A stretch of 64,000 nt of DNA from Methanomicrobiales archaeon (GTDB taxonomy: Archaea > Halobacteriota > Methanomicrobia > Methanomicrobiales > Methanospirillaceae): contig JANYKQ010000009.1 in the NCBI GenBank assembly GCA_025358115.1, positions 1 through 64,000 of the forward strand, in the 5' to 3' direction. The stretch's first letter is position 1; each line of letters begins with the position of its first letter. The notes below the pieces were generated by a model. The model ran no database searches. It was not told where the DNA came from and saw only the letters and a list, made by a program, of their open reading frames with translations. A program made the translations under genes and the position numbers. Of the stretch, positions 4,675 through 37,553 are shown piece after piece.

Positions 4675-4684
4675 GGGGAAGATC

Positions 4685-7014: not shown

Positions 7015-7035
7015 TAAATCGGGCTTCTTTTTCAA

Positions 7036-15016: not shown

Positions 15017-15290
15017 TCACCGCCACTTTTTTTCTTGAGTCTTTTTCCCGGAAGACAAGAGACGATAGTATGTCTTTACCGTAATGGAGTTTTCCGGTTT
15101 CTCTCTGCAGGGTTTCAGGGAATATGACAACGATTACTGCCGGGAGATCATCAGGCTCCCCTTATGGAAAAGAGAGAACGTTAAAATTTACGGATACGTA
15201 AAATCCGCAGATCCTTACCGGGCCGTGAAATTACGCCGGGTTTGAAACCCGTTCCGCTCAACCGGCAGGATTAATTCGCACCATACCCGT

Positions 15291-16988
15291 TCAGGATGAT
15301 ACCGGCTGGCGGTATACCTGGAAATCAATCCGGGACAGGATCTCCGGGATCTGCCGGATAGTGTCGCGGTCTTTCTCTTTCTCGGGTTCAGAGAGTTCCT
15401 CGTACGGTACAAGCGACGGGTGGATTCGCTTTGCATCGTCGCGTTGCTCACCGTAGCGCCATCCTCCCTCTGTCTTGTCAGTCATCCAGCGTTCATGCTC
15501 AAGGGAGGAGAGCCGCTCGGTCTCATCTTCAGAAAACCGGAATTCAAGGGGTGCGTCCCAGTCAGTAACCGGACCGATCTCGCAGCCCACCAGGGACAAT
15601 TTTGTCCAGATGAAGTTGGCCTGCCTGCGGTTGGACTGACGGTATTTTTCCCCGTCAATCCCGTCTTTCTTTTCCGTAAGCGTACCGAGTTCATCCCAGC
15701 TGACCAGCAGACGGTTGGTCTCGCGGGTCAGTCCTTTCTCCTGCTCCTTGCTGCAATAATTTTCATGGATTGACCGTGCAAGGATCTCTTCTTCCCCGGC
15801 AAGAATGAGCTTGCTGTTGGCAGTGAGCTCAAACATATTTACCGGGTGGATCTCCTGTACGCTCTTGAGACCTACCTGTTCATCGGCGATGAGTTTAGCA
15901 ACGCTCGTATTATGATCCATGCGGACAATGAACCTGACATCTTTGCCGGCAGTATGCTGGTGGAGTGTTAAGGCTGCATAGAGCCCCAGGGAATCATCAT
16001 CAAGACAGATATAGGCAACAAAGCCCCGGCTCAGGAGGGGGTTCCTGAGAAATTCCCCGTTCTTGAAAGCGGCCGACCTGACATCCAGGGTGAGCGCACC
16101 CAGGTCGCAGGCCTGGGTGAGTTTCGGGTACTGGATGATGAGGTTCTCCCGGATCAGCCCGGCGTTCACATCCACAAGGATGATCGTCAGCCGGGCCGGT
16201 TCCCCCTTATGCAGCAGGTACCAGGTCCGGGCAATCCGGGTCAGGATATTCTCTCCCAGCCGGCCGGCCCCAAGGATCACGATCGGCAGGGGAGCGGTCC
16301 CCTTTTCTGCCGACGGGAAGGCCGGGTACTGGTCGAGAAGTGCCCGGGCTCCAAGGGCATACTGGTTGAAGAACTCGATCCGGATAGACGAGTCTTTCCG
16401 TGCGGAAAAAGCGTGTTTCCTGATGATCCCGTAGAGTTGCGGGTTGATCACCTGGATGATACAGGTGAGTGCCTGGTGCTTTTTTTCCGGCACCATCCGC
16501 ATCACGTTCAGGGCGACTTCTGCATTATCCTCATCCACATCATTTAAGGAGAGAACGTATGCGGCATTTTTCACACCGGCCTTTTTGAGCATGGTGGGAT
16601 CGGAGGGAAGCCCGATCAGGACAATCAATCCCAGCATCCTGCAGGATTCAATGTACGTGTTACTTGAATTACTCTCGATGATGACCGGCTTTATTCCCCG
16701 CCGGACCAGGTCATTGACGACCAGGAATGATCGGGAATTCAGGCCACAGATGATGGCATGCCCGCGTTTGAAGCGGAGCGGTGCCGTATGGATCTTGTCC
16801 CGGACATACAGGTAAATAATCCCGGCGGAACTCGAACCGGCAAACGCACCGACTGCAATGCGGATAAAATCGGAATTTGCCGTGCCGATGCTCTCTTTTA
16901 TCGCGGGAAATGCAATGAAAACCCCGACTCCCGTTCCGACAATAGCGAGCAGGGCCTGGATTACCATGTAGATATCAGGAGTATCCAT
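15291..16988 (-). CDS. Membrane TrkA-N/RCK-type protein with C-terminal RyR domain
   Basis: Two N-terminal TM segments, TrkA-N-like HAIICGLNSRSFLVVNDLVRRGIKPVIIE and VILGAGRLGENILTRIAR; C-terminus LSSLEHERWMTDKTEGGWRYGEQRDDAKRIHPSLVPYEELSEPEKEKDRDTIRQIPEIL is RyR-like. Confidence 0.85.
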   Translation of the reverse strand: MDTPDIYMVIQALLAIVGTGVGVFIAFPAIKESIGTANSDFIRIAVGAFAGSSSAGIIYLYVRDKIHTAPLRFKRGHAIICGLNSRSFLVVNDLVRRGIKPVIIESNSSNTYIESCRMLGLIVLIGLPSDPTMLKKAGVKNAAYVLSLNDVDEDNAEVALNVMRMVPEKKHQALTCIIQVINPQLYGIIRKHAFSARKDSSIRIEFFNQYALGARALLDQYPAFPSAEKGTAPLPIVILGAGRLGENILTRIARTWYLLHKGEPARLTIILVDVNAGLIRENLIIQYPKLTQACDLGALTLDVRSAAFKNGEFLRNPLLSRGFVAYICLDDDSLGLYAALTLHQHTAGKDVRFIVRMDHNTSVAKLIADEQVGLKSVQEIHPVNMFELTANSKLILAGEEEILARSIHENYCSKEQEKGLTRETNRLLVSWDELGTLTEKKDGIDGEKYRQSNRRQANFIWTKLSLVGCEIGPVTDWDAPLEFRFSEDETERLSSLEHERWMTDKTEGGWRYGEQRDDAKRIHPSLVPYEELSEPEKEKDRDTIRQIPEILSRIDFQVYRQPVSS

Positions 16989-16990
16989 GG

Positions 16991-17755
16991 TCAGTCCGGC
17001 CCCCCGGGATTGCCCGGCGACGGGTTTGCATCCTGCACCCCGGCCAGATGCGTTTTTATATTTTCGGTCAGGGTCCTGAAATACTGCTGCGCCGGTGGGG
17101 GGAATGCATCAAACCAGTGGGGGATGTTGATGAGATAATCCATGTTCTTTGTCGGCAGGATCTCTTCAATCCGGAACGGGATGATCATGAGGTTTCTTGT
17201 CACCGCCCGCGTCAGTTCGCGGATAACGTGGGGGGAATTATCCGAACTTTTTGAAAAGATCAGCACAACAACCCGGCTCTCATCAATCGCGTCGATGATC
17301 GAACCGGGAAAATTGGAGCCGGGGAGAACATCCCGGGGAGCAATCCAGCAGAGGATCCCCCCGGTCTCAAGATAGGAGCAGAGATCGGTGGCTATCCTCT
17401 GGTCAGGTTTTGAATAGCTGATGAATACCTGGTGGCGGGGTTTTGCAGAACCAGGCCTCACTCCTGCCGGGGAGCCCGGTGATGTCGCAACCTCGTCATC
17501 GATCATATCGGTGCCGGTACTTCCTGCAGGGGCCCAGCCGGCAGTCTCCTCTGCCTTTCCTTTCCACTCTTTTGCCTGCTCCCGGTAGTACTGTTCCCGG
17601 AGCGGGACCTTCCGGGAAAGCCGGAGGAACAGGGCTGTACATTCCTCAGCCAGGCGCCGGGCGGTTACCCGATCCCCGGCTGTTTCTGCTGCGCTGAATG
17701 CTTTGGCATTCTGTTGGATCTTCTGGAGGATATCGGCAGGAGTGTCAATCTTCAT
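16991..17755 (-). CDS. TIR-domain protein with MIT-like N-terminal helical domain
   Basis: QVFISYSKPDQRIATDLCSYLETGGILCWIAPRDVLPGSNFPGSIIDAIDESRVVVLIFSKSSDNSPHVIRELTRAV; N-terminal helical bundle with MIT-like spacing. Confidence 0.85.
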   Translation of the reverse strand: MKIDTPADILQKIQQNAKAFSAAETAGDRVTARRLAEECTALFLRLSRKVPLREQYYREQAKEWKGKAEETAGWAPAGSTGTDMIDDEVATSPGSPAGVRPGSAKPRHQVFISYSKPDQRIATDLCSYLETGGILCWIAPRDVLPGSNFPGSIIDAIDESRVVVLIFSKSSDNSPHVIRELTRAVTRNLMIIPFRIEEILPTKNMDYLINIPHWFDAFPPPAQQYFRTLTENIKTHLAGVQDANPSPGNPGGPD

Positions 17756-17797
17756 GGCAGTACAACGTCATCAGCGGGATTTCAAAAAAAAAGAATT

Positions 17798-18976
17798 TTA
17801 TGAGGCCCCGAACTGCTTGTTCCATTCTTCGTGCTGTGAGAGATCCTTAGGAGTCAAAGGTGATTTTATCCGCGTAATGGCAAGAGTGAAATCCTCCATG
17901 GTAAGTGGACCGGCTTTTAAGGTCTTTTTCTGTAACTCATCAAATGAGAGTTCAGCCATATTCTCAATATTGTCATAGATATCTTTGTTTATTCTGCGGG
18001 TCATGCTCTTCATGGCATCCCGGCAGACGTTCTGGAGATCCCGACCGGAATAATGCTGATTTACAGACCGCTCGCCTATATTTTCGAGGTCCAATTGTGA
18101 TATGTCAAGCCCTTTGGTCTGGATTTTGATGATCTCCTGGCAGGCTTTCTTGTCGGGAAGGGGAATATGGATGCGTTTAGGGAACCGGGACAACACGGCG
18201 TCGTCCAGTTTCCAAGGGGTATTGGTTGCAGAGAGGGTGAGAATGAGTTTGTCGCTTTTTTTATCCTGGAACCCATCCAGTTCAGTCAGGAGTGATGCCA
18301 GCACTTTGCGGGATGCTTCACTCTGATCGTCATCTCTGGACATAGTAATGGAATCCAGTTCATCGATGAATACAATCGAAGGGGCATGCTTGCGGGCAGA
18401 TTCATACAAGGACGTAATGAGCTTTGAGGAGTCTCCCACATATTTTGAAATAATACTGCTTATTTTTACATTATAGAACGTTGCTTTGAGACTACCTGCC
18501 GCAGCAGCAGCGAGCAGGGTTTTTCCGGTACCGGGCGGACCAAAGAGTAAGATACCCTTATCGGGTTTGATGGACTCGGGTTTGCTCAGCCCTGCAATCA
18601 CCACAGTCTCCATGATGAGACTCTTGACTTCCGCCAAGCCCCCGATATCCTTCCATGTCACGGTGGAGGTCTGGATCTGGGTGTCTCCAAAACTGCTGAA
18701 GTCATCCTCGGACTCACTCCCCCTCTCTCCCCGTTCAACCACCGTTTTCCGGGGAGCGGTTCCGGCAGTCTGATCGGCTTCATCCCACCGTTTCGCCTTG
18801 TCAATATGCGCCTTCATCTGGTCCGGAACTTTCTGAGCCAGCTGCCGTTCCACATTGGCACAAATCTTTGCATACTTCTTGACATTCTCAAGATCATTCT
18901 TCGCTAATGCAGCTTTGTACTTCCCCTCGGCTTCCTTCAGCTGCGAATACAGAACTCCGGATAAATCGATGTTCAT
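17798..18976 (-). CDS. Vps4/CdvC/katanin-type AAA ATPase with MIT-like N-terminus
   Basis: Walker A LLFGPPGTGKTLLAAAAA, Walker B SIVFIDELDSI, meiotic-clade C-terminus SPLTPKDLSQHEEWNKQFG; start at MNIDLSG just after SD ggtgaggaggag. Confidence 0.85.
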   Translation of the reverse strand: MNIDLSGVLYSQLKEAEGKYKAALAKNDLENVKKYAKICANVERQLAQKVPDQMKAHIDKAKRWDEADQTAGTAPRKTVVERGERGSESEDDFSSFGDTQIQTSTVTWKDIGGLAEVKSLIMETVVIAGLSKPESIKPDKGILLFGPPGTGKTLLAAAAAGSLKATFYNVKISSIISKYVGDSSKLITSLYESARKHAPSIVFIDELDSITMSRDDDQSEASRKVLASLLTELDGFQDKKSDKLILTLSATNTPWKLDDAVLSRFPKRIHIPLPDKKACQEIIKIQTKGLDISQLDLENIGERSVNQHYSGRDLQNVCRDAMKSMTRRINKDIYDNIENMAELSFDELQKKTLKAGPLTMEDFTLAITRIKSPLTPKDLSQHEEWNKQFGAS

Positions 18977-19088
18977 TGACTCCTCCTCACCATGCTCCGC
19001 TTGCCTACTATCTAAAATATACGGCAATTGATTATTACAATATCGCTTTTTAGTTCCCGATCTCCGTACGGGTTAAAAAAATGAAAAA

Positions 19089-19667
19089 TTATTCGAGTTC
19101 TTTTTTCTGGGATTTGACCGTATCAGGAGATGCGTGGGCCGCACCCTCTTTGCCTGCCCGTATGGTATCGAGAATATCCCCGAGATCGTCTTCTGCTTCC
19201 ACCCCGACTTCCATGGTGCCGGAGGTCATATCGATGATCGCATTGATCTGTGCATCATCATCCATGGTATCGAGCTTCTTCCCGATGAGGTAACTCTCCA
19301 TCTTTTCGGGATTGATCTTTTTGAGCTTCCTGACTACATCTGCCGGGAGATCTTTTTCACGTTCCTTTAAGATGAGAATATTTGAAACGGCCTGCAGATC
19401 TTTATCAATCTGGGCTAATGAAGAGAGTTTCATCTCCTTTTTCTGGAGATATGTCTTGATCTGCCGGGCATAGCTTACTTCTTCGGACTTCGAGGAGGAT
19501 TCTTTTGCCAGATCGTATGTGCGCTGGACTTCCTGATCTATCCGCCGGACCTCTGCATGGATCGTTTCGATCTTCTTGTTGAGCTGGATCTCGGTAACCT
19601 TGAGCTCGTCGACACTGAACGTATCGATGGGATTTCCTCCCCCGAAAAGAGAGGATAAAAATCCCAT
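19089..19667 (-). CDS. ESCRT-III/PspA-like coiled-coil protein, paralogue 1
   Basis: Amphipathic N-terminus MGFLSSLFGG, long helical region, acidic C-terminal part; adjacent to a Vps4-like ATPase; paralogous to 19671-20276. Confidence 0.6.
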   Translation of the reverse strand: MGFLSSLFGGGNPIDTFSVDELKVTEIQLNKKIETIHAEVRRIDQEVQRTYDLAKESSSKSEEVSYARQIKTYLQKKEMKLSSLAQIDKDLQAVSNILILKEREKDLPADVVRKLKKINPEKMESYLIGKKLDTMDDDAQINAIIDMTSGTMEVGVEAEDDLGDILDTIRAGKEGAAHASPDTVKSQKKELE

Positions 19668-19670
19668 GGA

Positions 19671-20276
19671 TTAACTCCCCTCAGTGTCCTTGTTCTCCAG
19701 TTGTTTTTCCATGGATACCAGTTTCTGGGCTGACTCTACATCGATTGCGCCGGTCTCCACGCCGCTCCAGGCATCCAGGAGCTGTTTCTCGGTGTCATCC
19801 GTGGATTGTTCGAGGCTGAAATCGGTGAGTGACCCCTCAAAGACACTGTTGAGATTATTGAGCACGTCATCAAAGCTCTTGCCCTTGAGGTTGACACTTA
19901 TCAGGTTAGTTTCAAAATTCGAAGGATCGATATTGGTAATCTTTGACCAGATGGGGCTCTGTTTGAGCTCTTTCTCATATTGCTTGATCACGACGAGGTT
20001 TGAAATGAACATGTACTCCTTGTTCATGGTCATGAAACCCTTGAACTTCAGCTGGGCCTGCATGTCGAGTTGTTTGAGTTTCTGGGCAAGGATCTTCTTC
20101 TGGATAAGATCGGCGCCAACCCCCTGCTTGAAGGTGTCTTTTTTCTGTTTCTCAATTTTCATTATCTCTTTTCGGGCAAGCTCGACATGGTTCTGGAGCC
20201 GCATCTCCTCCTCTTTGAGCTCGCGGATATTCAACCGTTCAACAGAATTTCCTCGTAAGAAGTCAAGAATTCCCAT
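19671..20276 (-). CDS. ESCRT-III/PspA-like coiled-coil protein, paralogue 2
   Basis: MGILDFLRGN N-terminus and the same architecture as paralogue 1; 3 bp upstream of it. Confidence 0.6.
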   Translation of the reverse strand: MGILDFLRGNSVERLNIRELKEEEMRLQNHVELARKEIMKIEKQKKDTFKQGVGADLIQKKILAQKLKQLDMQAQLKFKGFMTMNKEYMFISNLVVIKQYEKELKQSPIWSKITNIDPSNFETNLISVNLKGKSFDDVLNNLNSVFEGSLTDFSLEQSTDDTEKQLLDAWSGVETGAIDVESAQKLVSMEKQLENKDTEGS

Positions 20277-20375: not shown

Positions 20376-23300
20376 TTATCCCCGGTTCCTGAACCCAAGA
20401 CTCACCCTGTGCACAATATTCTCCGCCTTCTGGATAAGTTCTTCAGGAATTTCTGTCACTCCCATATCCATTCTCATCCTGATCTGTCCGGCTAATTCCT
20501 GCGCTTCTTCCTTCACGTCGCCTTTGGAATAATGAGCGAGATCGAGGAGATACTTAAAGGCTGTTGGAATATCGCCGGTCAGCATATTGATCAGGACGAG
20601 ATCCCCGCAATAGGATGCAGACCGCTGGAGATCATTGGCAGTTACGCTCAGGGTGAGGGATTCGGTATAGGTGACCCGCAGGAAGAGTGCCAGGTCTTTC
20701 TGGAGTTCAAGCACGGACTGGTACCGTTTACTATGATTTTTTTCCAGGCACTTCATGATTATCGATTCAACCGGTTGTGAGCCCGGTTCAACAGATGATG
20801 GCAGTGCCGGGTTTTTTGATGCAATCGCACCCATGACGGCAACCATCGAATCGCCGGTAAACGGCAGGTGCCCGGTCACGAGTTCATAGAAGATCACGCC
20901 AAGCTGCCAGATATCGGTGCGTTCATCCTTGTGCTCACTGCTGATCTGTTCCGGCGCTGCGTAATACGGGGTGAAGGATGCAGTGGTAGTCGATGTCGAC
21001 TCGGAGATCACGCGGGAGAGTCCCCAGTCTGATATCTTCGGCAGGCCGTTTTTTATGAGAATGTTCTGCGGTTTTAGGTCCCGGTGAATTATCCGGTTTG
21101 CATGGGTAAATTTCAGACCTTCACAGACATTGAAGAGAATCCATGCTGCTTCCTCGCTGTCGATCGGTTTTTTCCGGTCAGCAAGGGAACTGTCACAGAG
21201 TTCCATCTCGAAATAGGGCAGCGGCATGATATTGAAATCATAGAGTTTCACGATATTGGGATGGTTGAGTTTAGTCCAGTTCTGCATCTCGGCAATGAAT
21301 GATTTTCCGGTGGATGCGTCCATGGATATCGGGATCTTCACCGCCACAAACTTCCCGTCCTTCCGTTTTGCCTTAAAGACCCGGGCAAACCCGCCTTTGC
21401 CGATGAACTCCGACTCGGTATACCGATCGGAGAGATCCGGCGGGAGTTGTTTTAAGGTGAGGGGCCGGGGAGTGAACCGGGAGACGGGACTTTGTGGCGG
21501 AGTTGCTGCGACATCTTTCTGAGGGGTAAGGGTCATCCGGTCTACGACATCGATCCAGAACTCGTGGGTTATGTCATACGTTTTTTCCTGCCCGTAACGG
21601 CAGTGGACGGTGATCTCGAGCGGAATGTTGCCCTCCTTCTTTGGCAGGATGCCAATCTCGACAGTGGTGCTCTTCCCCGCTTCGATATCGGTGGGCTTGA
21701 TCCACCGTGTCTCGAACTCGCTGGAGAACGAGAAACTCACCCCGGATGCGTGGGCATCCCCGCTGTTGGTGATCTGCACACCTACCTTGTGCCACTTGTC
21801 CGCAACAAGACGGGTGTGATCGAGCACGAGCGTGAGAGCGGGTTGTGCGGAAGCCACAAACGCATCGAGATCCTTAATCGCATGCTCAATATCGGCAATC
21901 TTTTCTGATGCGAGCTTTTCCTGCAAGGCTTTGGGAACACGCCCGAACTTCCCGGCTTTTTCGAGAGATGAGGCTGCCCTCTCCCTGAACGCGATTATCG
22001 CTTTTCTCTGCTCCTGCCACTCACTGCAGGCATGGATGAACTCTTCGTACTTCCCGTTGTCAAACAGGGAGATAATTGCCGGTTCCGTAACTTCGGACTT
22101 CAGGACTTCAGCTTGAGCAAACACTTCCCGGATCCGTATGATCTCTGCAACCGTTTTCTCCGATCCAATGATTGCTTCACCATAGTTTTCTTCCACAATC
22201 TGTTTACGGATTGGATCTGTTGAGTGTGTGACAACCGCACCTTCGGTTTGCACTGTTGAGAGTACGGTGTTTGCCTGTGATAATTGCTGTTCTGCAAGGT
22301 TCCTGAGCATCTCTTTGGCGCCGGGGAAGTCACGTTCCCGGATGCTCCTGAGAATGGGTATGAGTCCCTCTTTTATCGCGGGAGAACTGGTCTCCTTCTG
22401 TACTTTTTCCACATCGTCGCGAAGGTTCTGTTCAATGATCTTCAGCCTTTCCTCCTGGACCCGCGTGATCTCCGCAATCACTCGTTCCGCATTGATAATT
22501 GCATCGCCATAGTGCTCCATTGCAACCTGTTCGCGGATGGGATCTGGAGAGAGATGGGCTGCATCTTCGGCTGGCATCGTGGAGTGTGCGGTATATGCCT
22601 GTGATACCTGCTGTTCTGCAAGGCTCCTGAGTTTTTCTTTGGCGCCAGGGAAATCACGCTCCCGGATACTCTTCTGAACGGGTATAAGTCCCTCTTTTAT
22701 CGCGGGAGAACCGGTTTCCTTCTGTACTTTTTCCACCTGTTTGCGGAGATCCTGTTCAATGATCTTCAGCCTTTCCTCCTGGACCCGCGTGATCTCCGCA
22801 ATCACGTTTTCCGTATTGATGATTGCATCGCCATAGTGCTCTGCTGCAATCTGTTCGCGGATGGGATCTGAAGAGAAATGGGCAACTGCACCCCCGGTCG
22901 GGAACGTTGAGAGTGCGGCATTCGCCCGGGAAAACTGCAGTTCAGCAAGATCTCTGAGTTTTTCTCTGGCAGTGGTGAGATCGTGCTCCCGGATGCTCTT
23001 GAGAACAGGGGTGATCTCCTCTTTTATTGCGGGAGAACGGGTCTCCCGCTGAACTTTTTCAGCTTGTTCGCGGAGGTTCTGTTCAAGGATCTTCCGGTTG
23101 TCCTCATCCTGGCGTATTATCCCGGTCAACTGCCGGTAGTCCTTCTCTGCCGTGTCAGCCAGGGAAGGGTTCTTCAGGTTTTGTTCTAGAGAGGAAACGA
23201 TGCTGGCAGTTTCCGGTTGTTCAACCAGGTCCGGATACAAGTTCTTCTTTGCTTCAAGATCCCGGGCAATTATTTCGAGACGGTTGATATCCAGTTCTGA

Positions 23301-26168
23301 CTTCCGGAAGAGGGAGAGCACAGCATCGGTATTACGGGGAAACCCTCCTTCAAGTTCCGGGATCGTATACCCCTTTGCCTTCCATCCTGCAAGCACTGTC
23401 TCACACGTAAGCAGGGCATCGAGAGGATCGTTAACCCGCTTCAGGGTTTTTTGTGCATCACTGTATCTACCGGCGGTGATCTGATTCCGTGCTTCCTCAA
23501 AGGAACTTACAGTCAGTGATCCATACCGGGTGAGTTTCTCCGCCTTTTCGTACAGGCGGGAGAACAACTGTTCTGCATCCTGCTGCCGGGCCCGCTCCTG
23601 CTGGTCATGCAGGATCTGCTGCTCCAGTGCTTCGATCTCCTTTTCAACAGAGGGAATATTTTTCGGATCGTGCAGGTGTGATTCAATGTCCGCGATACGC
23701 CGGGCAACCCGGGGATCTGCGTTTTCTGCGCTGAGCGATTGTTTCAGTTCCTGTATCCGGTTCTCAAGGTGTCGGAGCCTGACAAGATCCTGTTCAAAAT
23801 TCTTAAATGCTGTAGTGATGGTGGCGGGGTTATCTGTCCTGAGCAACTCAAGAGGTGTGGTGGCATATCCTTCCTCTTTCCATTGCATGAGCCGGGTTTC
23901 GCATGACACAAGGGAAGTGATCGCATCCTCTGCGGTGATGAGCATTGTCCGGGCTGCATCATATGCTCCCGAACGGTTCTGTTCCCGGGCTTGTGTTATG
24001 AGTGCCTGGACCGGGTTACGGAAGAACATGAGCCCGGAGGCTTCCTGTTCAACCAATGCGATCTTTGCCAGCACGGATTCCGATTCCCTGCGTTCCCAGT
24101 CATCTGGTGGCGGAGGGGTTGGCAGGGCCGGCTCTCCCGTAGGCCCTTTCATTAAGGGTACCTGAAGTACCGGTATTACCGGGATTTGATCCCCGGCTGG
24201 CTTTCTCTTCATCCGGTAGAATGCATATCCCCCGCCGGCAAGGATTACTACTCCGAGGATGACGATGACGGGCAGGACCGGATTGGCATTGCCGGTGTCC
24301 GAAGGTGATGGGGATGAGGGGGTACTCTGAACCCCCGGGGCCGGGGTGGAGGCGGTCAGGCTCGCATTGCTGCTTCCCGAAGGTGTCGGTGATGAAGCGG
24401 TACTCTGCATTCCCGGTGTTGCTGAAGTAACCAGCCGGATTACCGGTGCCGGGGCTACTCTTCCCACTGCATAAAGGTGGATATCATAACTTGCGACATA
24501 GACGATCCCGTTTGACACGGCCGGCGATGATCGGATGTCAGCGCCAGTAGCAAACCGCCATTTCTCTGTTCCCGATACCGCATTCACGGCGTACAGGTTG
24601 CCGTCATAACTCCCGATATAGACGATGCTGTCGGTAACCGCCGGCGATGAATACAGGTCACCTTTCGTTGCGAACTGCCACCGGTTCTTTCCTGTGACGG
24701 TATCCACAGCATACAGCTTGTTATCATTACTGCCTATGTAGACAAGTCCGTTTGCAACCGCCGGGGATGACGATATACCGTTTTCCGTGGCAAACCGCCA
24801 CTGCTCCTTCCCGGTCAGTGCATCGACAGCATACAGGTTCTTGTCCCAGCTCCCGACATAGATGACACCATTAACCACGGCCGGGGATGAATACACAATA
24901 TTTCCGGTGGCAAACCGCCATTTCTCCGCTCCCGTTACCGCATCGATCGCGTAGAGATTTTTATCTTCACACCCGACATAAACGACCCCGTTTGCGACCG
25001 CCGGGGATGACCGCACCCGTCCCGTTGTTGCAAACCGCCACTTCTCTTTTCCGGTAACGGCATCGACTGCATACAGGTCGTAATTGTCGCTCCCGATATA
25101 GACAACCCCGTTCGCTACCGCCGGGGATGACCAGACATAATTTCCCGTAGCAAACCGCCACTTCTCCTTCCCGGTCACTGCATCGACTGCGTACAGGTAG
25201 CTGTCCGCACACCCGATGTAAACAACGCCGTCCGACACCGCCGGAGAGGATGCGGAGACCGCACCTCCCGTAGCAAACCGCCACTTCTCCTTCCCGGTCA
25301 CAGCATCGACAGCATACAGGGCGTTATCCGGACTCCCGATATAGACGACCCCGCCTGAAACCGTTGGTGATGATGATGACACTGACGTACCCGTCACGAA
25401 CCGCCACAGCTGAGTATTGGATGGCACCATCCCGCCCGCATCGTACACGCCAGTGTGCTCCGGGCTGGCGCGGAACATCGAAGCGGCAGCAGGGGTGAGA
25501 GAACTATCCGGTATTGTCTGGCTTTGCCCTGCCAGACCCGGCTGCTGACCGGAGCCCGGCGGGGTCTCGAGCTGGAGATATTTCCATCTCGTTTTGGTAT
25601 TGGTGTCGTCGCTGTATGCGCTTACCCCGAAAAAAACCTGGTCCTTTTCTGCATAGGGAATCGTCAGGTTGACTGTTCCGCAATTGGGTACCTGCCAGAG
25701 GGGCTGGCTGTACTGGTCCTCCCCCTTGTACACAAAGAACCGGACATCTCCGGATCCTTCCCTGCAGGCTTCCCCGGAAAGATGCACAAATCCACCAGAG
25801 CCGGGAATGGTAACACGTATGACAGCATCCCGGTCATACCCGGTAATATTGACCGCAGACGGAAAAGCGTAGATTCCTTCCGGATCGAAGGGAATCTGAT
25901 CAAGGTTCGGGTTAACACCCCGCGTGATCACCGGCTTGGCTTTTGGGGCAGAGGGTATGCCAAACCAGTAATTCCCGTTTTTTTTCAGGTATTCCAGATT
26001 GGTATACCCGGCGCTGTCCCGTGACTGGAGCCAGATGCCATTTTCTCCATTCTGCGTAACGGGAAATTTATCGAAAAGAGAAAAAGTATCTGCGTGAACC
26101 GGCACAATTATGAAAATACATAAAAAAAGGATGAAGACCGGTAGTGGCCTGAGGTTCATACTCTTCAA
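20376..26168 (-). CDS. Giant PQQ-propeller receptor Ser/Thr kinase with tandem coiled-coil repeats
   Basis: Signal peptide, PQQ-type repeats, TM segment, about 100-aa helical repeats, Ig-like domain, kinase core IGKGGFARVFKAKRKDGKFVAVKI...HRDLKPQN...SDWGLSR. Confidence 0.9.
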   Translation of the reverse strand: MKSMNLRPLPVFILFLCIFIIVPVHADTFSLFDKFPVTQNGENGIWLQSRDSAGYTNLEYLKKNGNYWFGIPSAPKAKPVITRGVNPNLDQIPFDPEGIYAFPSAVNITGYDRDAVIRVTIPGSGGFVHLSGEACREGSGDVRFFVYKGEDQYSQPLWQVPNCGTVNLTIPYAEKDQVFFGVSAYSDDTNTKTRWKYLQLETPPGSGQQPGLAGQSQTIPDSSLTPAAASMFRASPEHTGVYDAGGMVPSNTQLWRFVTGTSVSSSSPTVSGGVVYIGSPDNALYAVDAVTGKEKWRFATGGAVSASSPAVSDGVVYIGCADSYLYAVDAVTGKEKWRFATGNYVWSSPAVANGVVYIGSDNYDLYAVDAVTGKEKWRFATTGRVRSSPAVANGVVYVGCEDKNLYAIDAVTGAEKWRFATGNIVYSSPAVVNGVIYVGSWDKNLYAVDALTGKEQWRFATENGISSSPAVANGLVYIGSNDNKLYAVDTVTGKNRWQFATKGDLYSSPAVTDSIVYIGSYDGNLYAVNAVSGTEKWRFATGADIRSSPAVSNGIVYVASYDIHLYAVGRVAPAPVIRLVTSATPGMQSTASSPTPSGSSNASLTASTPAPGVQSTPSSPSPSDTGNANPVLPVIVILGVVILAGGGYAFYRMKRKPAGDQIPVIPVLQVPLMKGPTGEPALPTPPPPDDWERRESESVLAKIALVEQEASGLMFFRNPVQALITQAREQNRSGAYDAARTMLITAEDAITSLVSCETRLMQWKEEGYATTPLELLRTDNPATITTAFKNFEQDLVRLRHLENRIQELKQSLSAENADPRVARRIADIESHLHDPKNIPSVEKEIEALEQQILHDQQERARQQDAEQLFSRLYEKAEKLTRYGSLTVSSFEEARNQITAGRYSDAQKTLKRVNDPLDALLTCETVLAGWKAKGYTIPELEGGFPRNTDAVLSLFRKSELDINRLEIIARDLEAKKNLYPDLVEQPETASIVSSLEQNLKNPSLADTAEKDYRQLTGIIRQDEDNRKILEQNLREQAEKVQRETRSPAIKEEITPVLKSIREHDLTTAREKLRDLAELQFSRANAALSTFPTGGAVAHFSSDPIREQIAAEHYGDAIINTENVIAEITRVQEERLKIIEQDLRKQVEKVQKETGSPAIKEGLIPVQKSIRERDFPGAKEKLRSLAEQQVSQAYTAHSTMPAEDAAHLSPDPIREQVAMEHYGDAIINAERVIAEITRVQEERLKIIEQNLRDDVEKVQKETSSPAIKEGLIPILRSIRERDFPGAKEMLRNLAEQQLSQANTVLSTVQTEGAVVTHSTDPIRKQIVEENYGEAIIGSEKTVAEIIRIREVFAQAEVLKSEVTEPAIISLFDNGKYEEFIHACSEWQEQRKAIIAFRERAASSLEKAGKFGRVPKALQEKLASEKIADIEHAIKDLDAFVASAQPALTLVLDHTRLVADKWHKVGVQITNSGDAHASGVSFSFSSEFETRWIKPTDIEAGKSTTVEIGILPKKEGNIPLEITVHCRYGQEKTYDITHEFWIDVVDRMTLTPQKDVAATPPQSPVSRFTPRPLTLKQLPPDLSDRYTESEFIGKGGFARVFKAKRKDGKFVAVKIPISMDASTGKSFIAEMQNWTKLNHPNIVKLYDFNIMPLPYFEMELCDSSLADRKKPIDSEEAAWILFNVCEGLKFTHANRIIHRDLKPQNILIKNGLPKISDWGLSRVISESTSTTTASFTPYYAAPEQISSEHKDERTDIWQLGVIFYELVTGHLPFTGDSMVAVMGAIASKNPALPSSVEPGSQPVESIIMKCLEKNHSKRYQSVLELQKDLALFLRVTYTESLTLSVTANDLQRSASYCGDLVLINMLTGDIPTAFKYLLDLAHYSKGDVKEEAQELAGQIRMRMDMGVTEIPEELIQKAENIVHRVSLGFRNRG
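22150..23115 (-). repeat. Three or more tandem repeats of about 320 bp (about 105 aa) inside the 1930-aa kinase
   Basis: VIAEITRVQEERLKIIEQ-LR-VEKVQKET-SPAIKEGLIP-SIRERDFPGAKE-LR-LAEQQ-S... recurs. Confidence 0.85.
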
Positions 26169-26360: not shown

Positions 26361-29300
26361 TTACCCAATATTTGATCCCGTAACAACACTATCTGCGATG
26401 GTAACATCCCCGCTACATTTGCCATCCATATCACAGTTGTTCAGAAGATTCGTCCTTGTAAGAACAGAATCCTTTATCGAAATATTGAAAATATTCTGGA
26501 TATTTCCCCTCTTCGATACTTCTTCGGTGACGTGACGGTTTATCTCAGCGAGGAGACCTGTGAGATCTTTTGGATCGTGGCTGAAGGCCGTTATTTCAAC
26601 CATGTCCATGTCTTTTGCGATACCGAGTTTGATCACCATATCCTTTTGAGTGACTTTTGTCTTTCCATAATACCAGGATTCAAAATTATTGGCTCGCCGA
26701 AGCGTACTGATATGCCGGATATCATGGTGTTGAATCACACTCTGGAAGAGCTTCAGTTGAGTTGGTGCGTCGAGATTTCTGGGAACTGAAAATATTTTTG
26801 TATCCCGTGATGGGAGGGATTCGATGAGTTGTTTGAGTGATCCGATATTCACTTGTTCTTTTGTCTCAAAGATTGGACAGACAACCTGAATTTTGAGTGG
26901 ATCCATGTCGAGCGATCCGGGTTTCCCCTGTGCATCCTTATACCGTATGTGGCATTGTACATCGGTTCCTTCCTTTGCGCAGATGGTCGGTTCGAGGTAG
27001 AGACTCACCGTTCTGTCATTGTTCGGATTGATAGTCCCGAGTTTAATTTTCTCGTTTTCATAGGGATATTCTTCCGGTTCATGCCGTTCCAGATAAAGAA
27101 TTGCACGATCAAAATCGGGTTCTAAAATAACATTGTGAATGGTGAATGGCGTTAGATTTTTCACTGAGATTTTCAGGCGAATATACCCGGCATAGAATTC
27201 ATACGCACGGATGATCTGGAAGTCTTGGGACGATATTGTTTTATTTGGGAATTGATCCACAGATGAGGTCGTACCCTTTTCAACAACAGCGATCCAGAAC
27301 TCCTGCACCTTCCGGTATTCCCTGCCATCAACATTCTTGTACGTAAGGATTGCTTCGAGCAGGACCTTGCCGGCATTTTTCGGCATCAGGGTAAATTCGA
27401 TATGAGTTACCGTGCCTACCGGGACGGAGACTGGCTTTATCCCCTTGGTCTGGAACTCTTCAGAGAAGGAAAGCAGGACATCGGTTGCATTGGCGGCACC
27501 GGTATTTTTCAGGGAGGCCCGGGTCAGGACCCATACGCCCGCTGTGAAGGTCGTGGTCTCAAGCCCGATCTCCAGATCGGGGGTTGCCATTCTCCGGAAT
27601 TTCTCGAGACCGGCAATTGCATCTTCGACTACAGATATTTCCCGGGCCTGGAATTTTGATTCAACGTCCGAACGCAGGCTGTCGGGAATCTGACCGAACT
27701 TTCCTGATTCAGCGAGGAGTTGCCGTCCTTTTTCCTTGAGTGCGGTAAGTTTTCCCTGGTATTCCAGCTGCTGTTCAAAATTCTGGAACGCTGAATTGAT
27801 CGTTGCAATATTTTCAATTTTCAACTGCTCAAGAGAAGACGTATCATGTCCTTTTGATCGCCATTCTGCAATGCAGTCTTCCTGGTTTTTAAGGTTAGCA
27901 ATTACCCGTTCTGCGGTACTGAGCGTTGTCCGTGCGGATTCATAGGCACCTGAATTGTACTGGTTTTTTGCTTGGGCAATAATTGCCTGGGCCTGGGTTC
28001 TGAAGAGTACCAATGACGAGGCACCCTGCTCTGCCGCAGTGATCTTCCGGGGGATGTCGCTATTTTTGACCAGCGTTGCTCTTCTCCTCCGGTAGATGAC
28101 ATATCCTCCAACAAGAAGGAGCAATAGTCCGAGAAGAATTATAGAAATTGGAATGTTTGCGATACGATTGGTTGGATCGGATACCGCTGAAAAAATACCC
28201 TGAATACTTGGAATGGTGGCTCCTCCAATCGCATACAGGTTGTTATCAGAATACACATAGACAACACCGTTTGCAACCACTGGTGCTGATGCTATTGAAG
28301 ACCGCGCAGTAAATCGCCACTTTTCTTTGCCGTTTGCTGCATCAACTGCATATAGGTTATGATTGTTACTCCCAACATAGACGACGCCATTTGCTACTGA
28401 TGGCGATGTAAACCCTGTAGACATCGGATCAGATTTCCCTATACTGAACTTCCATTTCTGGTTCGCCGTTGCGGCATCAATCGCATACAGGTTATTTTCG
28501 GAATCCCCGATATAGACAACGCCCCCCGTTACCGCCGCCGAGTCTTTAACTATACCGTCGGCAATAAACCGCCACTTCTCTTTCCCTGTAGCAGTATCGA
28601 GAGCAAACAGGGCCCATCCCGGTTCTGCATAACCCCCAATATAAACAACACCATCCGCTACCGTTGGTGTTGTACCGGTCCCGAGACCCCCAGTACCAAA
28701 TCGCCACATCTCTCTCCCGGTCGTGGCATCGACTGCATACAGGTTCTCATCTGAACTATGGACATAGACGACACCGTTAGCTACAGCGGGGGATGAAGAG
28801 ATGCGATCTCCTGTTGTGAACCGCCACTTCTCTGTCCCTGCTGCCGCATCAACCGCATACAGGTTCTTATCTGAACTACCAACATAGACGACGCCGTTTG
28901 TTACAGCCGGTGATGAATCCACACTACTCCCCGTAGCAAACCGCCACTTCTCTGTCCCCGTCGCAGCATCGACCGCATGCAGGTTCTTATAACTACCAAC
29001 ATAGACGACGCCGTTTGTTACAGCCGGCGATGAATCCCCACCATCTCCCCTAGCAAACCGCCACTTCTCTTTCCCTGTTGCCGCATCGACCGCATACAGG
29101 TTATCATCCGAACTCCCGAAATAGGCGACGCCGTTTGTTACAGCCGGCGATGTGCCACGGATAATTCCCGAATTAAAGTGCCATAGTTCTGTATTGCCCG
29201 GTTCAATGCCGCCATTATCAAAGACGCCGGTATGTCCGGGATTGGCACGGTACATTGCATCGGCAGCGGCAGCGGGTGATATGAGAAGCACAGGAATGAG

Positions 29301-29375
29301 AAGACAGAGACATGTACAAAAAATTGCGATCCCGATACTCTTCCCGCGACCGTTCATGCTTTCCTGTTGCTTCAT
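26361..29375 (-). CDS. PQQ-propeller membrane protein of the same family lacking a kinase domain; C-terminal 'DSVxTRxN' repeats
   Basis: Signal peptide, PQQ-type repeats, TM, coiled coil, Ig-like domain shared with the kinases, C-terminus IKDSVLTRTNLLNNCDMDG...IADSVVTGSNIG. Confidence 0.85.
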   Translation of the reverse strand: MKQQESMNGRGKSIGIAIFCTCLCLLIPVLLISPAAAADAMYRANPGHTGVFDNGGIEPGNTELWHFNSGIIRGTSPAVTNGVAYFGSSDDNLYAVDAATGKEKWRFARGDGGDSSPAVTNGVVYVGSYKNLHAVDAATGTEKWRFATGSSVDSSPAVTNGVVYVGSSDKNLYAVDAAAGTEKWRFTTGDRISSSPAVANGVVYVHSSDENLYAVDATTGREMWRFGTGGLGTGTTPTVADGVVYIGGYAEPGWALFALDTATGKEKWRFIADGIVKDSAAVTGGVVYIGDSENNLYAIDAATANQKWKFSIGKSDPMSTGFTSPSVANGVVYVGSNNHNLYAVDAANGKEKWRFTARSSIASAPVVANGVVYVYSDNNLYAIGGATIPSIQGIFSAVSDPTNRIANIPISIILLGLLLLLVGGYVIYRRRRATLVKNSDIPRKITAAEQGASSLVLFRTQAQAIIAQAKNQYNSGAYESARTTLSTAERVIANLKNQEDCIAEWRSKGHDTSSLEQLKIENIATINSAFQNFEQQLEYQGKLTALKEKGRQLLAESGKFGQIPDSLRSDVESKFQAREISVVEDAIAGLEKFRRMATPDLEIGLETTTFTAGVWVLTRASLKNTGAANATDVLLSFSEEFQTKGIKPVSVPVGTVTHIEFTLMPKNAGKVLLEAILTYKNVDGREYRKVQEFWIAVVEKGTTSSVDQFPNKTISSQDFQIIRAYEFYAGYIRLKISVKNLTPFTIHNVILEPDFDRAILYLERHEPEEYPYENEKIKLGTINPNNDRTVSLYLEPTICAKEGTDVQCHIRYKDAQGKPGSLDMDPLKIQVVCPIFETKEQVNIGSLKQLIESLPSRDTKIFSVPRNLDAPTQLKLFQSVIQHHDIRHISTLRRANNFESWYYGKTKVTQKDMVIKLGIAKDMDMVEITAFSHDPKDLTGLLAEINRHVTEEVSKRGNIQNIFNISIKDSVLTRTNLLNNCDMDGKCSGDVTIADSVVTGSNIG

Positions 29376-29501: not shown

Positions 29502-32500
29502 TCAACCCTTTTTCCTGAAACCCACACTTACCTGATGCACGATAATCTCCGCTTTCTGGATGAGCTCTTCAGGAATCTCTGTCACTCCCATATCCATTCT
29601 CATCTGGATCTGTTCGGCTAATTCCCGGGCTTCCGATTTCACATCACCTTTGGAATAATGAGCAAGATCAAGGAGATACTTATAGGCAGTTTGAATATCG
29701 CCGGTCAGCATATTGATCATGACGAGATCCCCACAGTAGAATGCTGATCGGCTGTAATCCTGAACGGTCACACTTGTTTTCAATAAGTCCGCGTAATTTT
29801 CCCTCAGATAAAGCGCAAGATTTTTCTGGAGTTCAAGAACGGACTGGTACCGTTTTGCCGGATCTTTCTGGAGACATTTCATCACGACAACGTCTATTAC
29901 ATGGGCATCGGGAGTAATTTCGGAGGGACGTTTTGGATCCTTTGTGGCGATACCCATCCCGATCTCGATCATACTGTCACCCTGGAACGGTAACACACCC
30001 GTGACGAGTTCATACAGGATCACACCGAGCTGCCAGATATCAGTCCGTTCGTCTTTTGCCCGGTTGTTGATCTGTTCCGGTGCCGCGTAGTAAGGAGTGA
30101 ACGATGTCGCAGATGTGGTTGTTGCCTCGGAGATAACCCGCGAAAGGCCCCAGTCTGAGATCTTCGGAACGCCATTTTTGAGGAGGATGTTCTGGGGTTT
30201 CAGGTCACGATGGATAATCTTGCGGTCATGTGCGAATTTGAGCCCTTCACAGATGTTGAACAGAATCCATGCAGCTTCTTCGCACTCAACAGGCTTCACC
30301 TGATCTGCAAGTGCACAGTCGCAGAGCTCTTCCTCGAAAAACGGCATCGGCATGATGTTGAAATCGTAGAGTCCCACGATGTTGGGGTGGCTGAGTTTTG
30401 TCCAGTTCTGCATCTCGGCTATGAACGATTTCCCGGTCACGGCATCCATGGATATAGGGATCTTTACAGCGACAAATTTCCCATCCTTTCGTTTTGCCTT
30501 AAAGACACGGGCAAACCCGCCTTTTCCTATGAATTCAGATTCGGTATACCGGTCGGAGAGATCCGGAGGGAGTTGTTTGGGTGTATCGGGTTTGGGTGAA
30601 TAATGAGATACCGGACTTGATGTCGGAGGGGTAGCCATACCGGGTTCGGATGCCGAACTTATCCTGTCCGCAACATCAACCCAGAACTCCTGTACAGTCT
30701 CATATTTCTCCCTCTTTGGATCCTTATATTTCAGCGTAACTTCCAAGAGTACATTCCCGTCATTTTTAGGTAAAATACTGATGTCCGTACGCGATGACTG
30801 CCCCGGGCGGACAGTAACTGGTTTTATTCCCTTGGTCTCGAATTCATTTGAGAATGTAAACGTGACATCATTTGCCTGGGCTAACCCGTGGTTGGTGAGG
30901 GTTATCCCCAACTTATGCCATCTCGCGGCAGTAAGTTTCATGGTGTCAATCGTGATTGCCAGTTCGGGTTTGGCTGTTTTTTGTATTTTCTCGAAATCTG
31001 CCTGATCACGTTTGAATGCGAAGAGGAGTCTCTGCACATCGCCAAGACGTGCGGGATCTTTTAAAATCTGTCGGATTTTCTCAGACCGGGTAAGAATATC
31101 TGGTTGTGAAAAAAACACCGGATCGGTTTTCTGTATGTGAGTCAGTTCCTCATCGATTCTCTGCAACGTTTTGATTTGCTCTTCGAGATTCTTGATATTG
31201 GCGAGTATCTCCCGAGCCGTTTTTTGTGAGACATTTTCAGGAAGTTTGACACTATACCCATCTGTCGTCCACTTGTCAAGAGATTCCTTGGCTTTCCCAA
31301 CTTGGGCATCGAGTTCGATCAGTGTGTTCAATTCAGATAAGGCCTTTTCAATATCGGTGATCTTTTCAGGATTCCGGATATTTTGTCCTATGTTTCTGAT
31401 GAATGGTTGGGCATCTCGGCAGTTCAGAAGTGAACTGTATGATGTGGCCAGCTTTTGATAGTCCCGTTCAAGCGTTCTTAACTTGGCTATCTTCTGGTAG
31501 AGTGTATCACATCGTTGTCGGATCTGATCGATTGTTCCGGTATCCGAGATCAGCTGCGGGTCGATGAGATACCCCTCTCCTTTCCAGGAAGTTATGTTCA
31601 GTTCACACCTCTTTAAATGGGGTATCCCAGTCTCTAACTGAGATAGAAGGCGCTCTGCGTCTGAGAAGTTTTCTGAAAAAATTGAACGGTTGACTTCGGT
31701 TAGTATGCGAGTCACCGTCACCTTAAAAAAAGTCAGTGAATCTGATTGCCGGGTGACTGATTCAAGCCGGGTAGATAATTGTGGTGACGGTTTGCTTACT
31801 GGATATAATGAAGCGACTGATTCTGAACGGGGACCCGGAGTGTGCGGATTCGTGTCCGGTATTTTCCGTCGCCATCTGAAATATCCGATTCCACCTATAA
31901 CCAGAACAATGAGGACAACCCCGACAAGGATCACCGGAATTATGTTTGTGAGGTTTTTTGTTGAGGTACTCGGTTGTTGAGATAAAGATGAAACTGTTGT
32001 TTGTGTGGGTATCGTCTTTGTAGTGGTAGATATCGATGAGTTGGTTAACACAACTCCAACTGCATACAGGTTATGATCCCAACTCCCAACATATACAACA
32101 CCATTCGCCACAGCTGGGGACGATATTACCCAATTTCCCGTCGTGAATTGCCATAACTCTTTCCCCGTCACTGCATCGAGAGTATACAAGTTGCAATCCT
32201 TGCTCCCGACATAGACAACACTCTCCGACACAGCAGGTGAAGAACTCACCCCTCCTCCAGTAGTGAACCTCCACTTCTCTTTCCCAGTCTCCGCATCGAT
32301 AGCATACAGGTTCTTATCTTCACTTCCGACATAGATGATATTGTTCGAAACCGCAGGTGATGAACGTATCAAATCTCCAGTAGTGAACCTCCACTTCTCT
32401 TTCCCTGTTACCGCATCGATGGCATACAGGTTCTTATCCCAACTTCCGAAATAGATAACATTATCCGACACCGCAGGTGATGAAAATACATAACCTTCAG

Positions 32501-33194
32501 TAGTGAACCTCCACTTCTCTTTCCCCGTTACCGAATCGATAGCATACAGGTTCTTATCATTACTCCCGATATAGACAACACTATCCGATACCGCAGGTGA
32601 CGAACTCACTCCACCCCCTGTCGTGAACCTCCACTTCTCTATCCCTGTTACCGCATCGATAGCATACAGGTTCTTATCATTACTCCCGACATAGACAACA
32701 CTATCCGACACCGCAGGTGACGAACCCACTCCACCTCCAGTAGTGAACCTCCACTTCTCTTTCCCTGTTACCGCATCGATAGCATACAGGTTCTTATCTT
32801 CACTTCCGACATAGACGATATCGTTCGAAACCGCTGGTGATGAAAGGTACTCGTCACTTCCCATTTTAAAATTCCATTTCTCTTTTCCCGTCACTGCATC
32901 GATGGCATACAGTTTGTCATAATCACTCCCGACATAGACAACACTATCCGACACCGTAGGCATTGATTCAACATAATATCCCATCTTAAAATGCCACAAC
33001 TCCGTATTGGTTGGCACAATCCCCCCAGTATCAAAAATCCCCGTGTGCTGTGGGTTGGCGCGGAACATCGAGTCGGCAGCGGAGGTAGAGGGGATGATCA
33101 ACATTATGAGGAAAAAAAGAATTAAACAGGAGTGATACGCCCCGAATTCGTTACATATCCCGTGATTGCCCAAGGTCTCCCGCCGTTTAATCAA
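29502..33194 (-). CDS. PQQ-propeller receptor Ser/Thr kinase
   Basis: Near-identical PQQ repeats, TM, coiled coil, Ig-like domain, kinase core HRDLKPQN and SDWGLSR. Confidence 0.9.
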   Translation of the reverse strand: MIKRRETLGNHGICNEFGAYHSCLILFFLIMLIIPSTSAADSMFRANPQHTGIFDTGGIVPTNTELWHFKMGYYVESMPTVSDSVVYVGSDYDKLYAIDAVTGKEKWNFKMGSDEYLSSPAVSNDIVYVGSEDKNLYAIDAVTGKEKWRFTTGGGVGSSPAVSDSVVYVGSNDKNLYAIDAVTGIEKWRFTTGGGVSSSPAVSDSVVYIGSNDKNLYAIDSVTGKEKWRFTTEGYVFSSPAVSDNVIYFGSWDKNLYAIDAVTGKEKWRFTTGDLIRSSPAVSNNIIYVGSEDKNLYAIDAETGKEKWRFTTGGGVSSSPAVSESVVYVGSKDCNLYTLDAVTGKELWQFTTGNWVISSPAVANGVVYVGSWDHNLYAVGVVLTNSSISTTTKTIPTQTTVSSLSQQPSTSTKNLTNIIPVILVGVVLIVLVIGGIGYFRWRRKIPDTNPHTPGPRSESVASLYPVSKPSPQLSTRLESVTRQSDSLTFFKVTVTRILTEVNRSIFSENFSDAERLLSQLETGIPHLKRCELNITSWKGEGYLIDPQLISDTGTIDQIRQRCDTLYQKIAKLRTLERDYQKLATSYSSLLNCRDAQPFIRNIGQNIRNPEKITDIEKALSELNTLIELDAQVGKAKESLDKWTTDGYSVKLPENVSQKTAREILANIKNLEEQIKTLQRIDEELTHIQKTDPVFFSQPDILTRSEKIRQILKDPARLGDVQRLLFAFKRDQADFEKIQKTAKPELAITIDTMKLTAARWHKLGITLTNHGLAQANDVTFTFSNEFETKGIKPVTVRPGQSSRTDISILPKNDGNVLLEVTLKYKDPKREKYETVQEFWVDVADRISSASEPGMATPPTSSPVSHYSPKPDTPKQLPPDLSDRYTESEFIGKGGFARVFKAKRKDGKFVAVKIPISMDAVTGKSFIAEMQNWTKLSHPNIVGLYDFNIMPMPFFEEELCDCALADQVKPVECEEAAWILFNICEGLKFAHDRKIIHRDLKPQNILLKNGVPKISDWGLSRVISEATTTSATSFTPYYAAPEQINNRAKDERTDIWQLGVILYELVTGVLPFQGDSMIEIGMGIATKDPKRPSEITPDAHVIDVVVMKCLQKDPAKRYQSVLELQKNLALYLRENYADLLKTSVTVQDYSRSAFYCGDLVMINMLTGDIQTAYKYLLDLAHYSKGDVKSEARELAEQIQMRMDMGVTEIPEELIQKAEIIVHQVSVGFRKKG
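32050..33010 (-). repeat. Highly similar tandem PQQ-propeller repeats of about 120 bp
   Basis: Units encoding KEKWRFTTGGGVSSSPAVSDSVVYVGSNDKNLYAIDAVTG recur with very few changes. Confidence 0.85.
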
Positions 33195-36476: not shown

Positions 36477-37553
36477 ATGTTCAAAGAAGGCAATCGCGAT
36501 TGTATTGACCAGCTTCTCAAACCCTCCCGGAGCGTCCTCGACACGGGGGTATCGATCCGCAACGAGACCTTTGAGAAGCGGCAGGCACTCTGGCACGAGA
36601 TCCGGGCAAATGCCGACCGCTACCGGAACGGGGAGTGCGGAACCTTTCTCAAGGATTTGCATGGCGTTTTCCTGGCCCGGTTTGATGCCTCGCTCCTGCT
36701 CCTCGCGCTCGCATTCCGGCAGAACAACGAACCGTTCGAAGGAACGGGGTACTTCAGTGCACGGGAGATCGAGGCCTACGAGACCATCGAGAAATACAGC
36801 TATTTCAGGATCCTGACAAAAGGCGAGATTGCAAAAAAGATCGGGTCCCGGGATGAAAAAACCCTGACACTGCTCAAGGAATATTCCGTGTCCATGAAAA
36901 AACACATGGACGAGATCCTCGGGGATGCCGGGATCCGGGATACTGTCCGCAGTTACTTAAAGAAACAATGGGACGAGAACACCAAGAAGATCGGGGAGGC
37001 AATTTCCAGTGCCGGGGTGGACCTTGACTGGTTTTCCAGCCTTCCGCTCACTGCAAAAGATGCCGACAGGGCCCCGCAGGTCATCTACAACATAAATGCC
37101 GGAAACGATGCTGCCATCAATCTTGGCGCAGGAAATATTGCCAAAGATGCAGTACTTACCAATTCCACGATGGAGTCTTCGGGTGGCGGAGGAACAACCG
37201 TAAAGGATTCCGTCATCACGAGATCCACGATTAAGAATGAGGGGAGCAGTGGAGCTGAGAAGAGTATCAGCATCAGTGACAGCGTGATCACCTCATCGAC
37301 AATCGAATCAGTCCAGGAGCGTCCCGCTGAACCGGTAAAAGAACCGGTAAAAGAACCGGTAAAAGAGACGGTAAAGGAAACCCCGCCCAAATCACCCCAG
37401 TACATCTGCCTCTTATGCAAGACCGTGGCAAAGCCGGGAGCGAAATTCTGTACAACCTGCGGGGCAAAAATAACCCCGGTCTGCGGCAGTTGCCAGTCTC
37501 CCCTTTCCCCGAATGCAAAATTCTGTTCTGACTGTGGCCGGAAAACGTTGTGA
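36477..37553 (+). CDS. Protein with 'DSVITxSTI' repeats and C-terminal zinc ribbons
   Basis: AVLTNSTMESS...VKDSVITRSTIKN...ISDSVITSSTIES, then VKEP repeats and two zinc ribbons. Confidence 0.75.
   Translation: MFKEGNRDCIDQLLKPSRSVLDTGVSIRNETFEKRQALWHEIRANADRYRNGECGTFLKDLHGVFLARFDASLLLLALAFRQNNEPFEGTGYFSAREIEAYETIEKYSYFRILTKGEIAKKIGSRDEKTLTLLKEYSVSMKKHMDEILGDAGIRDTVRSYLKKQWDENTKKIGEAISSAGVDLDWFSSLPLTAKDADRAPQVIYNINAGNDAAINLGAGNIAKDAVLTNSTMESSGGGGTTVKDSVITRSTIKNEGSSGAEKSISISDSVITSSTIESVQERPAEPVKEPVKEPVKETVKETPPKSPQYICLLCKTVAKPGAKFCTTCGAKITPVCGSCQSPLSPNAKFCSDCGRKTL
37331..37378 (+). repeat. 12-bp tandem repeat encoding (VKEP/VKET)n
   Basis: ccggtaaaagaa repeated about four times. Confidence 0.9.

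Follow-up and report, generated by a model that had tools for sequence, protein, structure and literature searches.

The closest described relatives of the locus reported here are the ESCRT systems of the euryarchaeal Main clade, which in FtsZ-bearing archaea combine Vps4 and ESCRT-III proteins with arCOG09748 and arCOG08177 proteins, kinases and phosphatases, and for which roles in sorting and vesicle formation have been suggested (PMC10936438). We analysed a 64,000-nt window, meaning the whole stretch studied (contig JANYKQ010000009.1, positions 1 to 64,000), from a Methanomicrobiales archaeon, in which an operon encodes two ESCRT-III-like proteins (A and B), a Vps4/katanin-type AAA ATPase, a TIR protein and a TrkA-N/RyR protein. 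Shared with the Main clade are a Vps4-family ATPase (its MIT domain in that clade perhaps corresponding to the MIT-like N-terminus seen here), the ESCRT-III genes, Ser/Thr kinase and propeller proteins, probably a partner here termed E, and the range of taxa, including Methanomicrobiales and Thermococcales with FtsZ-bearing hosts. Since the A+B+AAA core fits this clade, it is already known (PMC10936438), and the first-pass annotation of this DNA was mistaken in treating an ESCRT core as unexpected in methanogens. The locus differs from the clade as published, for which no TIR, RyR or diadenylate cyclase (DAC) is mentioned, in that its MIT-like domains carry TIR or, in a related locus, DAC. As the text of PMC10936438 mentions neither TIR, cyclases nor RCK, the MIT-TIR version with RCK/RyR and the MIT-DAC version are, within the literature searched, new variants. 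That search returned no paper joining ESCRT with TIR/MIT, and the top results for ESCRT and cyclic di-AMP (c-di-AMP) were unrelated; an earlier mention may still exist.

Four further systems resemble parts of the operon. Like Thoeris (the TIR protein ThsB plus an effector), it pairs a TIR domain carrying the catalytic Glu, and hence a predicted ADP-ribose (ADPR)-type signal, with a next gene bearing a signal-binding domain; unlike Thoeris, it has no ThsA-type effector, the neighbour being TrkA-N/RyR, an MIT-like domain links its TIR protein to ESCRT, and any role in defence would be hypothetical. The phage RyR-domain protein RyDEP cleaves 2'/3' cyclic ADP-ribose (2'/3'cADPR), with contact residues H75, W78, H100 and D117, and its relatives bind cADPR signals, most tested RyR homologues doing so without cleavage (PMC13232231, a 2026 preprint). 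Our protein shares the PF02026 domain of RyDEP and all four of its ligand residues, equally spaced (PMC13232231), but is chromosomal, fused to transmembrane (TM) and RCK domains, and part of a TIR operon. The Cdv/ESCRT division machinery of TACK archaea also contains ESCRT-III and Vps4; here, in contrast, no CdvA or wH-CdvB was seen, FtsZ is present in the genome, and TIR and RyR are added. Finally, the AAA domain resembles that of IetA as defined in PADLOC, but IetA comes with an IetS protease, which a scan of the neighbours here did not reveal, and an architecture with Vps4_C and an MIT-like domain sets our protein apart. We therefore rejected IetA as an identity for the AAA protein, reading the similarity as general AAA relatedness, against which Vps4_C and context argue.

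All five open reading frames (ORFs) were confirmed on the minus strand, in the 5'→3' order A (19671..20276, 201 aa), B (19089..19667, 192 aa), AAA (17798..18976), TIR (16991..17755) and TrkA-N/RyR (15291..16988). The short gaps noted in the first-pass annotation were recovered between A and B (3 nt) and between TIR and RyR (2 nt), with 112 nt separating B from AAA and 42 nt AAA from TIR. Pfam searches identified AAA and Vps4_C (37 bits, cut-off 21.3) in the ATPase, TIR_2 (73 bits, 3e-20) in the TIR protein, and TrkA_N and RyR in the last product, where a second Rossmann-like segment completes the RCK part ahead of the C-terminal RyR domain. The most likely start of the AAA protein is ATG 18976, which follows ggaggag; a longer TTG ORF from 19027 is less likely. 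Comparison with relatives indicated purifying selection on all five genes (dN/dS 0.07-0.26), which, together with the occurrence of the A/B tandem beside AAA in dozens of genomes, argues that the gene set is not due to chance. The gene set, order, domains, conserved residues, co-conservation and TIR/DAC swap make a strong case, at the level of sequence, for this anatomy.

The AAA protein begins with a conserved helical region of ~80 aa with an MIT-like pattern. The first ~75 residues of the TIR protein matched the AAA-family hidden Markov model (HMM) with an E-value of 2.4e-9 and could be aligned along the whole of this region, so that the MIT domain first proposed for the TIR protein stands as an MIT-like N-terminus common to it and AAA. 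The top match of the MIT-like domain in the PDB profile search, a flap endonuclease, was judged irrelevant. When searched alone against the PDB, the C-terminal 93 residues of AAA matched no structures but those of katanin, fidgetin, Vps4 and spastin, all of the meiotic clade, in agreement with the Vps4_C match and with the earlier call of a Vps4/CdvC/katanin-type C-terminal helix. AAA is the sole Vps4_C protein of a genome that carries three tubulin/FtsZ-family genes; division by the ESCRT module is thus unlikely, which supports the original view of an accessory module rather than division machinery.

Catalytic-position and ligand-contact residues are retained in the two downstream proteins. 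An alignment with the homologues from loci L037, L038 and L052 showed that the Glu at the catalytic position of TIR (E180) is kept. The RyR domain matched solved RyR structures in the PDB (E 8.5e-32), and its residues H498, W501, H523 and D540 have spacings of 3, 25 and 42, identical to those of the RyDEP residues; ligand residues and spacing are kept in all four RyR proteins tested, our own and three homologues. Hydropathy analysis placed an N-terminal TM helix at aa 9-27. Elsewhere in the phylum, TIR genes adjoin 6 of 29 further RyR loci, indicating that the TIR-RyR pairing is a recurring unit. Given this recurrence outside ESCRT loci and the binding or cleavage of cADPR by phage RyR domains (PMC13232231), we regard the RyR protein as more than a mere accessory. 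Two related observations concern other loci: L038 holds a second, TPR-TIR/RCK pair at 16291-19473, and the RyR locus L167 encodes a TM-pore(TVGYGD)-TM-RCK-RyR protein, which is predicted to be a K+ channel that carries an RyR domain.

A different enzyme occupies the position of TIR in a congener (G125, locus L035), where the gene directly 3' of AAA encodes an MIT-like domain followed by DAC (6513-7313, minus strand). Its MIT-like domain matched a profile built without it with an E-value of 1.1e-14, and its DAC domain, which contains the DGA motif, gave 1.5e-18. Downstream on the same strand lies a Na+/H+ exchanger-TrkA_N-TrkA_C protein (2843-4846). In a tree of the ATPases, the TIR-linked AAAs formed one clade (100/100), with the L035 AAA as its sister (93/99). 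The sequences thus suggest a slot for an MIT-docked nucleotide-messenger enzyme, filled by either TIR or DAC, with an RCK-domain membrane protein in each locus. As DAC does not deplete NAD, the swap favours signalling over simple NAD+ depletion.

The assignment of A and B to the ESCRT-III superfamily draws on family members, fold and context. The two proteins are homologous paralogues (hhalign probability 99.7%, E 4e-26; reversed control 1.6%). In their AlphaFold2 (AF2) models (pLDDT 72 and 74), a short helix at the N-terminus precedes a long α1-α2 hairpin and short α3-α5, so that both contain the hairpin and short-helix core by which the superfamily is recognised; in A, which has an amphipathic N-terminus, helices span 17-52, 57-105, 108-114, 118-129, 135-147 and 159-175. 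Foldseek searches with A returned ESCRT-III-superfamily chains for ~20 of the top 50 by our count, among them Asgard ESCRT-IIIB, CHMP1B, CHMP2A-CHMP3, Snf7, CdvB2 and Vipp1, and such chains were frequent for B too. Neither A nor B itself matched any Pfam family, ESCRT or other, above the curated cut-off, but 5 of 29 B-family members matched Snf7 (best E 2.3e-4, aa 19-190 against model positions 4-169 of 171). The clusters of Archaeoglobi and Dehalococcoidia contain an additional Snf7 protein beside A/B, the Dehalococcoidia protein lying at the curated cut-off (27.5 bits versus 27.3, and 26.9 in another scan), and the Geoglobus cluster holds a second AAA for which Pfam gives an MIT match (1.2e-5). 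We accordingly place A and B in the ESCRT-III superfamily, on its Snf7/CdvB side, this being well supported for B and reached for A through its homology to B. Of the initial label "ESCRT-III/PspA-like", the first half is consistent with the Snf7 matches and AF2 layout; a PspA/Vipp1 identity was rejected, as no PspA family was among the Pfam matches shown for members, though Foldseek lists Vipp1/PspA chains alongside ESCRT-III. The C-terminal helix of B carries a MIM1-like EDDLGDILDTIR, a motif present in 19 of 29 family members; its key Arg is replaced by Ile, and we keep it as a lead only.

Within the order Methanomicrobiales, 12 of the 150 genomes, from seven genera, contain the pair. Scanning our genome collection with the A alignment yielded 32 loci from Methanoregula, Methanosarcina, Archaeoglobi, Thermococcus, Methanocalculus, Methanogenium, Methanocorpusculum and two Dehalococcoidia. 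A and B co-occur in all 32, as direct neighbours in 30 and, in both Dehalococcoidia, with ~6 kb between them. An AAA gene lies nearby in most loci with a long enough contig. A+B+AAA is a conserved cassette of Methanomicrobiales, Methanosarcinales, Archaeoglobi, part of Thermococcales and a few Chloroflexota, with recurring partners D (~175 aa), E (300-660 aa) and kinase, propeller and zinc-ribbon proteins. TIR and RyR are missing from most A/B loci, and the full five-gene set was found only in Methanoregula-type loci; co-conservation of all five genes, as first suggested, is therefore true of those loci, the cassette elsewhere lacking TIR and RyR. The five-gene order is intact in our locus, L037 and L052, and L039 holds the first four genes up to its contig end. 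In L038 (10170-14427) the AAA gene appears to be split, an MIT-like N-terminal fragment being followed by TIR and RyR and then by the remaining AAA, through a rearrangement or an assembly error, and one locus of genome G001 (L028:9394-10400) has a B gene with a mere remnant of A, its second locus (L036) being intact.

Among Thermococcales, which a review describes as without ESCRT-III (PMC10117752), 39 of 94 genomes carry the A/B family, almost always as a tandem pair, providing a candidate ESCRT-III partner for the Vps4-like ATPases of many members; in G418 an A-like domain lies within a 663-aa ORF. The two Dehalococcoidia genomes (L066, contig JALPYG010000006.1, and L067) hold A, B, AAA, the Snf7 protein, a second AAA, D and E. 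Because the L066 contig also bears bacterial ftsA-ftsZ, it is not misbinned archaeal DNA. The presence of the cluster on a Chloroflexota contig is a further difference from the Main clade and contradicts the statement that these systems are not in bacteria (PMC10936438). Two loci labelled Oscillospiraceae and Bacilli (L042 and L062) are near-copies of Methanomicrobiales/Methanocorpusculum ESCRT loci and are probably misbinned contigs.

In the best explanation of these data, to which we give roughly even chances, an enzyme that makes a nucleotide messenger is docked on an accessory ESCRT scaffold, and its signal acts on a membrane protein of the RCK type. A and B would co-assemble as ESCRT-III-type filaments on a membrane, the Vps4-like AAA would remodel these filaments, and kinase and propeller proteins would regulate the locus. 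Since the TIR enzyme carries the MIT-like, putative docking domain of AAA, it could be held at the filaments through it, and filament assembly or remodelling would lead it to convert NAD+ to an ADP-ribose-type signal. The product of the next gene, the membrane RCK/RyR protein, would bind or cleave this signal, followed by a change in ion or metabolite flux or by signal reset. Polymerisation, MIT docking on the A/B tails, the activity and product of TIR and the RyR response are steps that we infer; either membrane stress or a virus may be what triggers them. More tentatively, and with the balance leaning against it, ESCRT filaments in some archaea may serve as scaffolds for second-messenger synthases, an ESCRT-coupled, Thoeris-like surveillance in which MIT-like-docked TIR (ADPR-type signal) or DAC (c-di-AMP) would signal that a membrane is being remodelled to membrane proteins with RCK domains from the same locus.

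Several results weigh against this explanation. All Foldseek E-values for A and B were 0.1 or higher, A gave no significant Snf7 or CdvB match, and PDB profile searches returned CdvB weakly (E 0.46 and 1.4). Alignment of A or B by hhalign with small euryarchaeal CdvB-like and C-type profiles gave no match; shallow profiles are the likely limit, as the CdvB-like and C-type profiles also failed against each other. The MIT-like domain matched no MIT structure in the PDB profile search, and AAA has no Pfam MIT match. The RCK/RyR protein shows one clear TM helix only and no K+ filter. The second motif of the L035 DAC is GTRHS rather than GTRHR, and this is the single DAC-bearing locus seen. The gaps in the A/B evidence would suit coiled-coil adaptors unrelated to ESCRT-III, for which the lack of a significant Foldseek E-value and of any Snf7 match for A could be cited; we find this scarcely credible, given the B members that match full-length Snf7, the Snf7 protein and Pfam-MIT AAA in the same clusters, and the helix layout.

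The remaining alternatives concern TIR and RyR. The TIR protein might be a terminal NAD+-depleting effector of an abortive response, recruited by the filaments, with RyR acting as a brake, either by binding or hydrolysing any cADPR that leaks or by sensing NAD(H) through RCK. RCK domains commonly bind NAD(H), TIR retains Glu180, and RyR retains the catalytic H and D of RyDEP, a 2'/3'cADPR hydrolase. This reading is nevertheless unlikely, as most tested RyR homologues bind without cleaving and the DAC swap points to a messenger role. Sorting and vesicle formation under kinase control has been proposed for Main-clade systems (PMC10936438) and most loci are without TIR/RyR, so a housekeeping protein-sorting or vesicle ESCRT, with TIR and RyR as structural or regulatory adaptors that do not signal, was also considered. 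We judge it quite unlikely in view of the conserved catalytic Glu and ligand residues, the TIR-RyR pairs found elsewhere and the messenger enzymes that alternate in one slot. Stand-alone TIR-RyR pairs exist (e.g. L159-L161 and L169, and the second pair in L038), raising the question of whether a passenger defence pair simply landed beside an unrelated ESCRT cassette; this is very unlikely, since the operon TIR shares its MIT-like domain with AAA, the genes keep their order and close spacing, and the TIR-linked AAAs form a single 100/100 clade.

Pfam analysis of the flanking genes identified, 99 nt upstream of A, a membrane β-propeller (PQQ)-coiled-coil-Ser/Thr kinase (20376..26168, minus strand). 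It is a probable regulator of the locus, as kinases are repeatedly found next to the cassette and also in ESCRT loci of the Main clade. The same-strand run continues with a PQQ β-propeller protein (26361..29375) and a second PQQ propeller-Ser/Thr kinase (29502..33194), followed on the plus strand by a divergent zinc-ribbon Ser/Thr kinase (33348..35375) and an E-family protein with a C-terminal double zinc ribbon (DZR; 36477..37553, E-family HMM 2.2e-64), a recurrent partner in ESCRT loci that is probably arCOG09748-like. E and D may correspond to the arCOG09748 and arCOG08177 proteins; neither the window nor the flanks of L037, L038 and L052 yielded a D-type partner. A zinc-ribbon and SPFH/Band 7 protein lies ~12 kb from the operon (1435-3426, minus strand), and SPFH proteins are found in other archaeal ESCRT loci (PMC10936438). 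Downstream of the operon is a polyphosphate kinase 2 (PPK2) gene (12656-14176, minus strand); in L052, too, the gene after RyR (15060-16577) encodes a protein that begins similarly.

If correct, the proposed model would join ESCRT membrane remodelling to TIR/cyclic-nucleotide signalling, two machineries without a known link, in an archaeon whose division does not depend on ESCRT. It predicts MIT-tail binding, filament-switched NADase activity and cADPR binding by RyR. It would offer a cellular setting for RyR domains that receive TIR signals, a relation for which the case has hitherto been made from animal calcium channels and the evasion proteins of phages, and a possible function for the Main-type ESCRT systems of euryarchaea.

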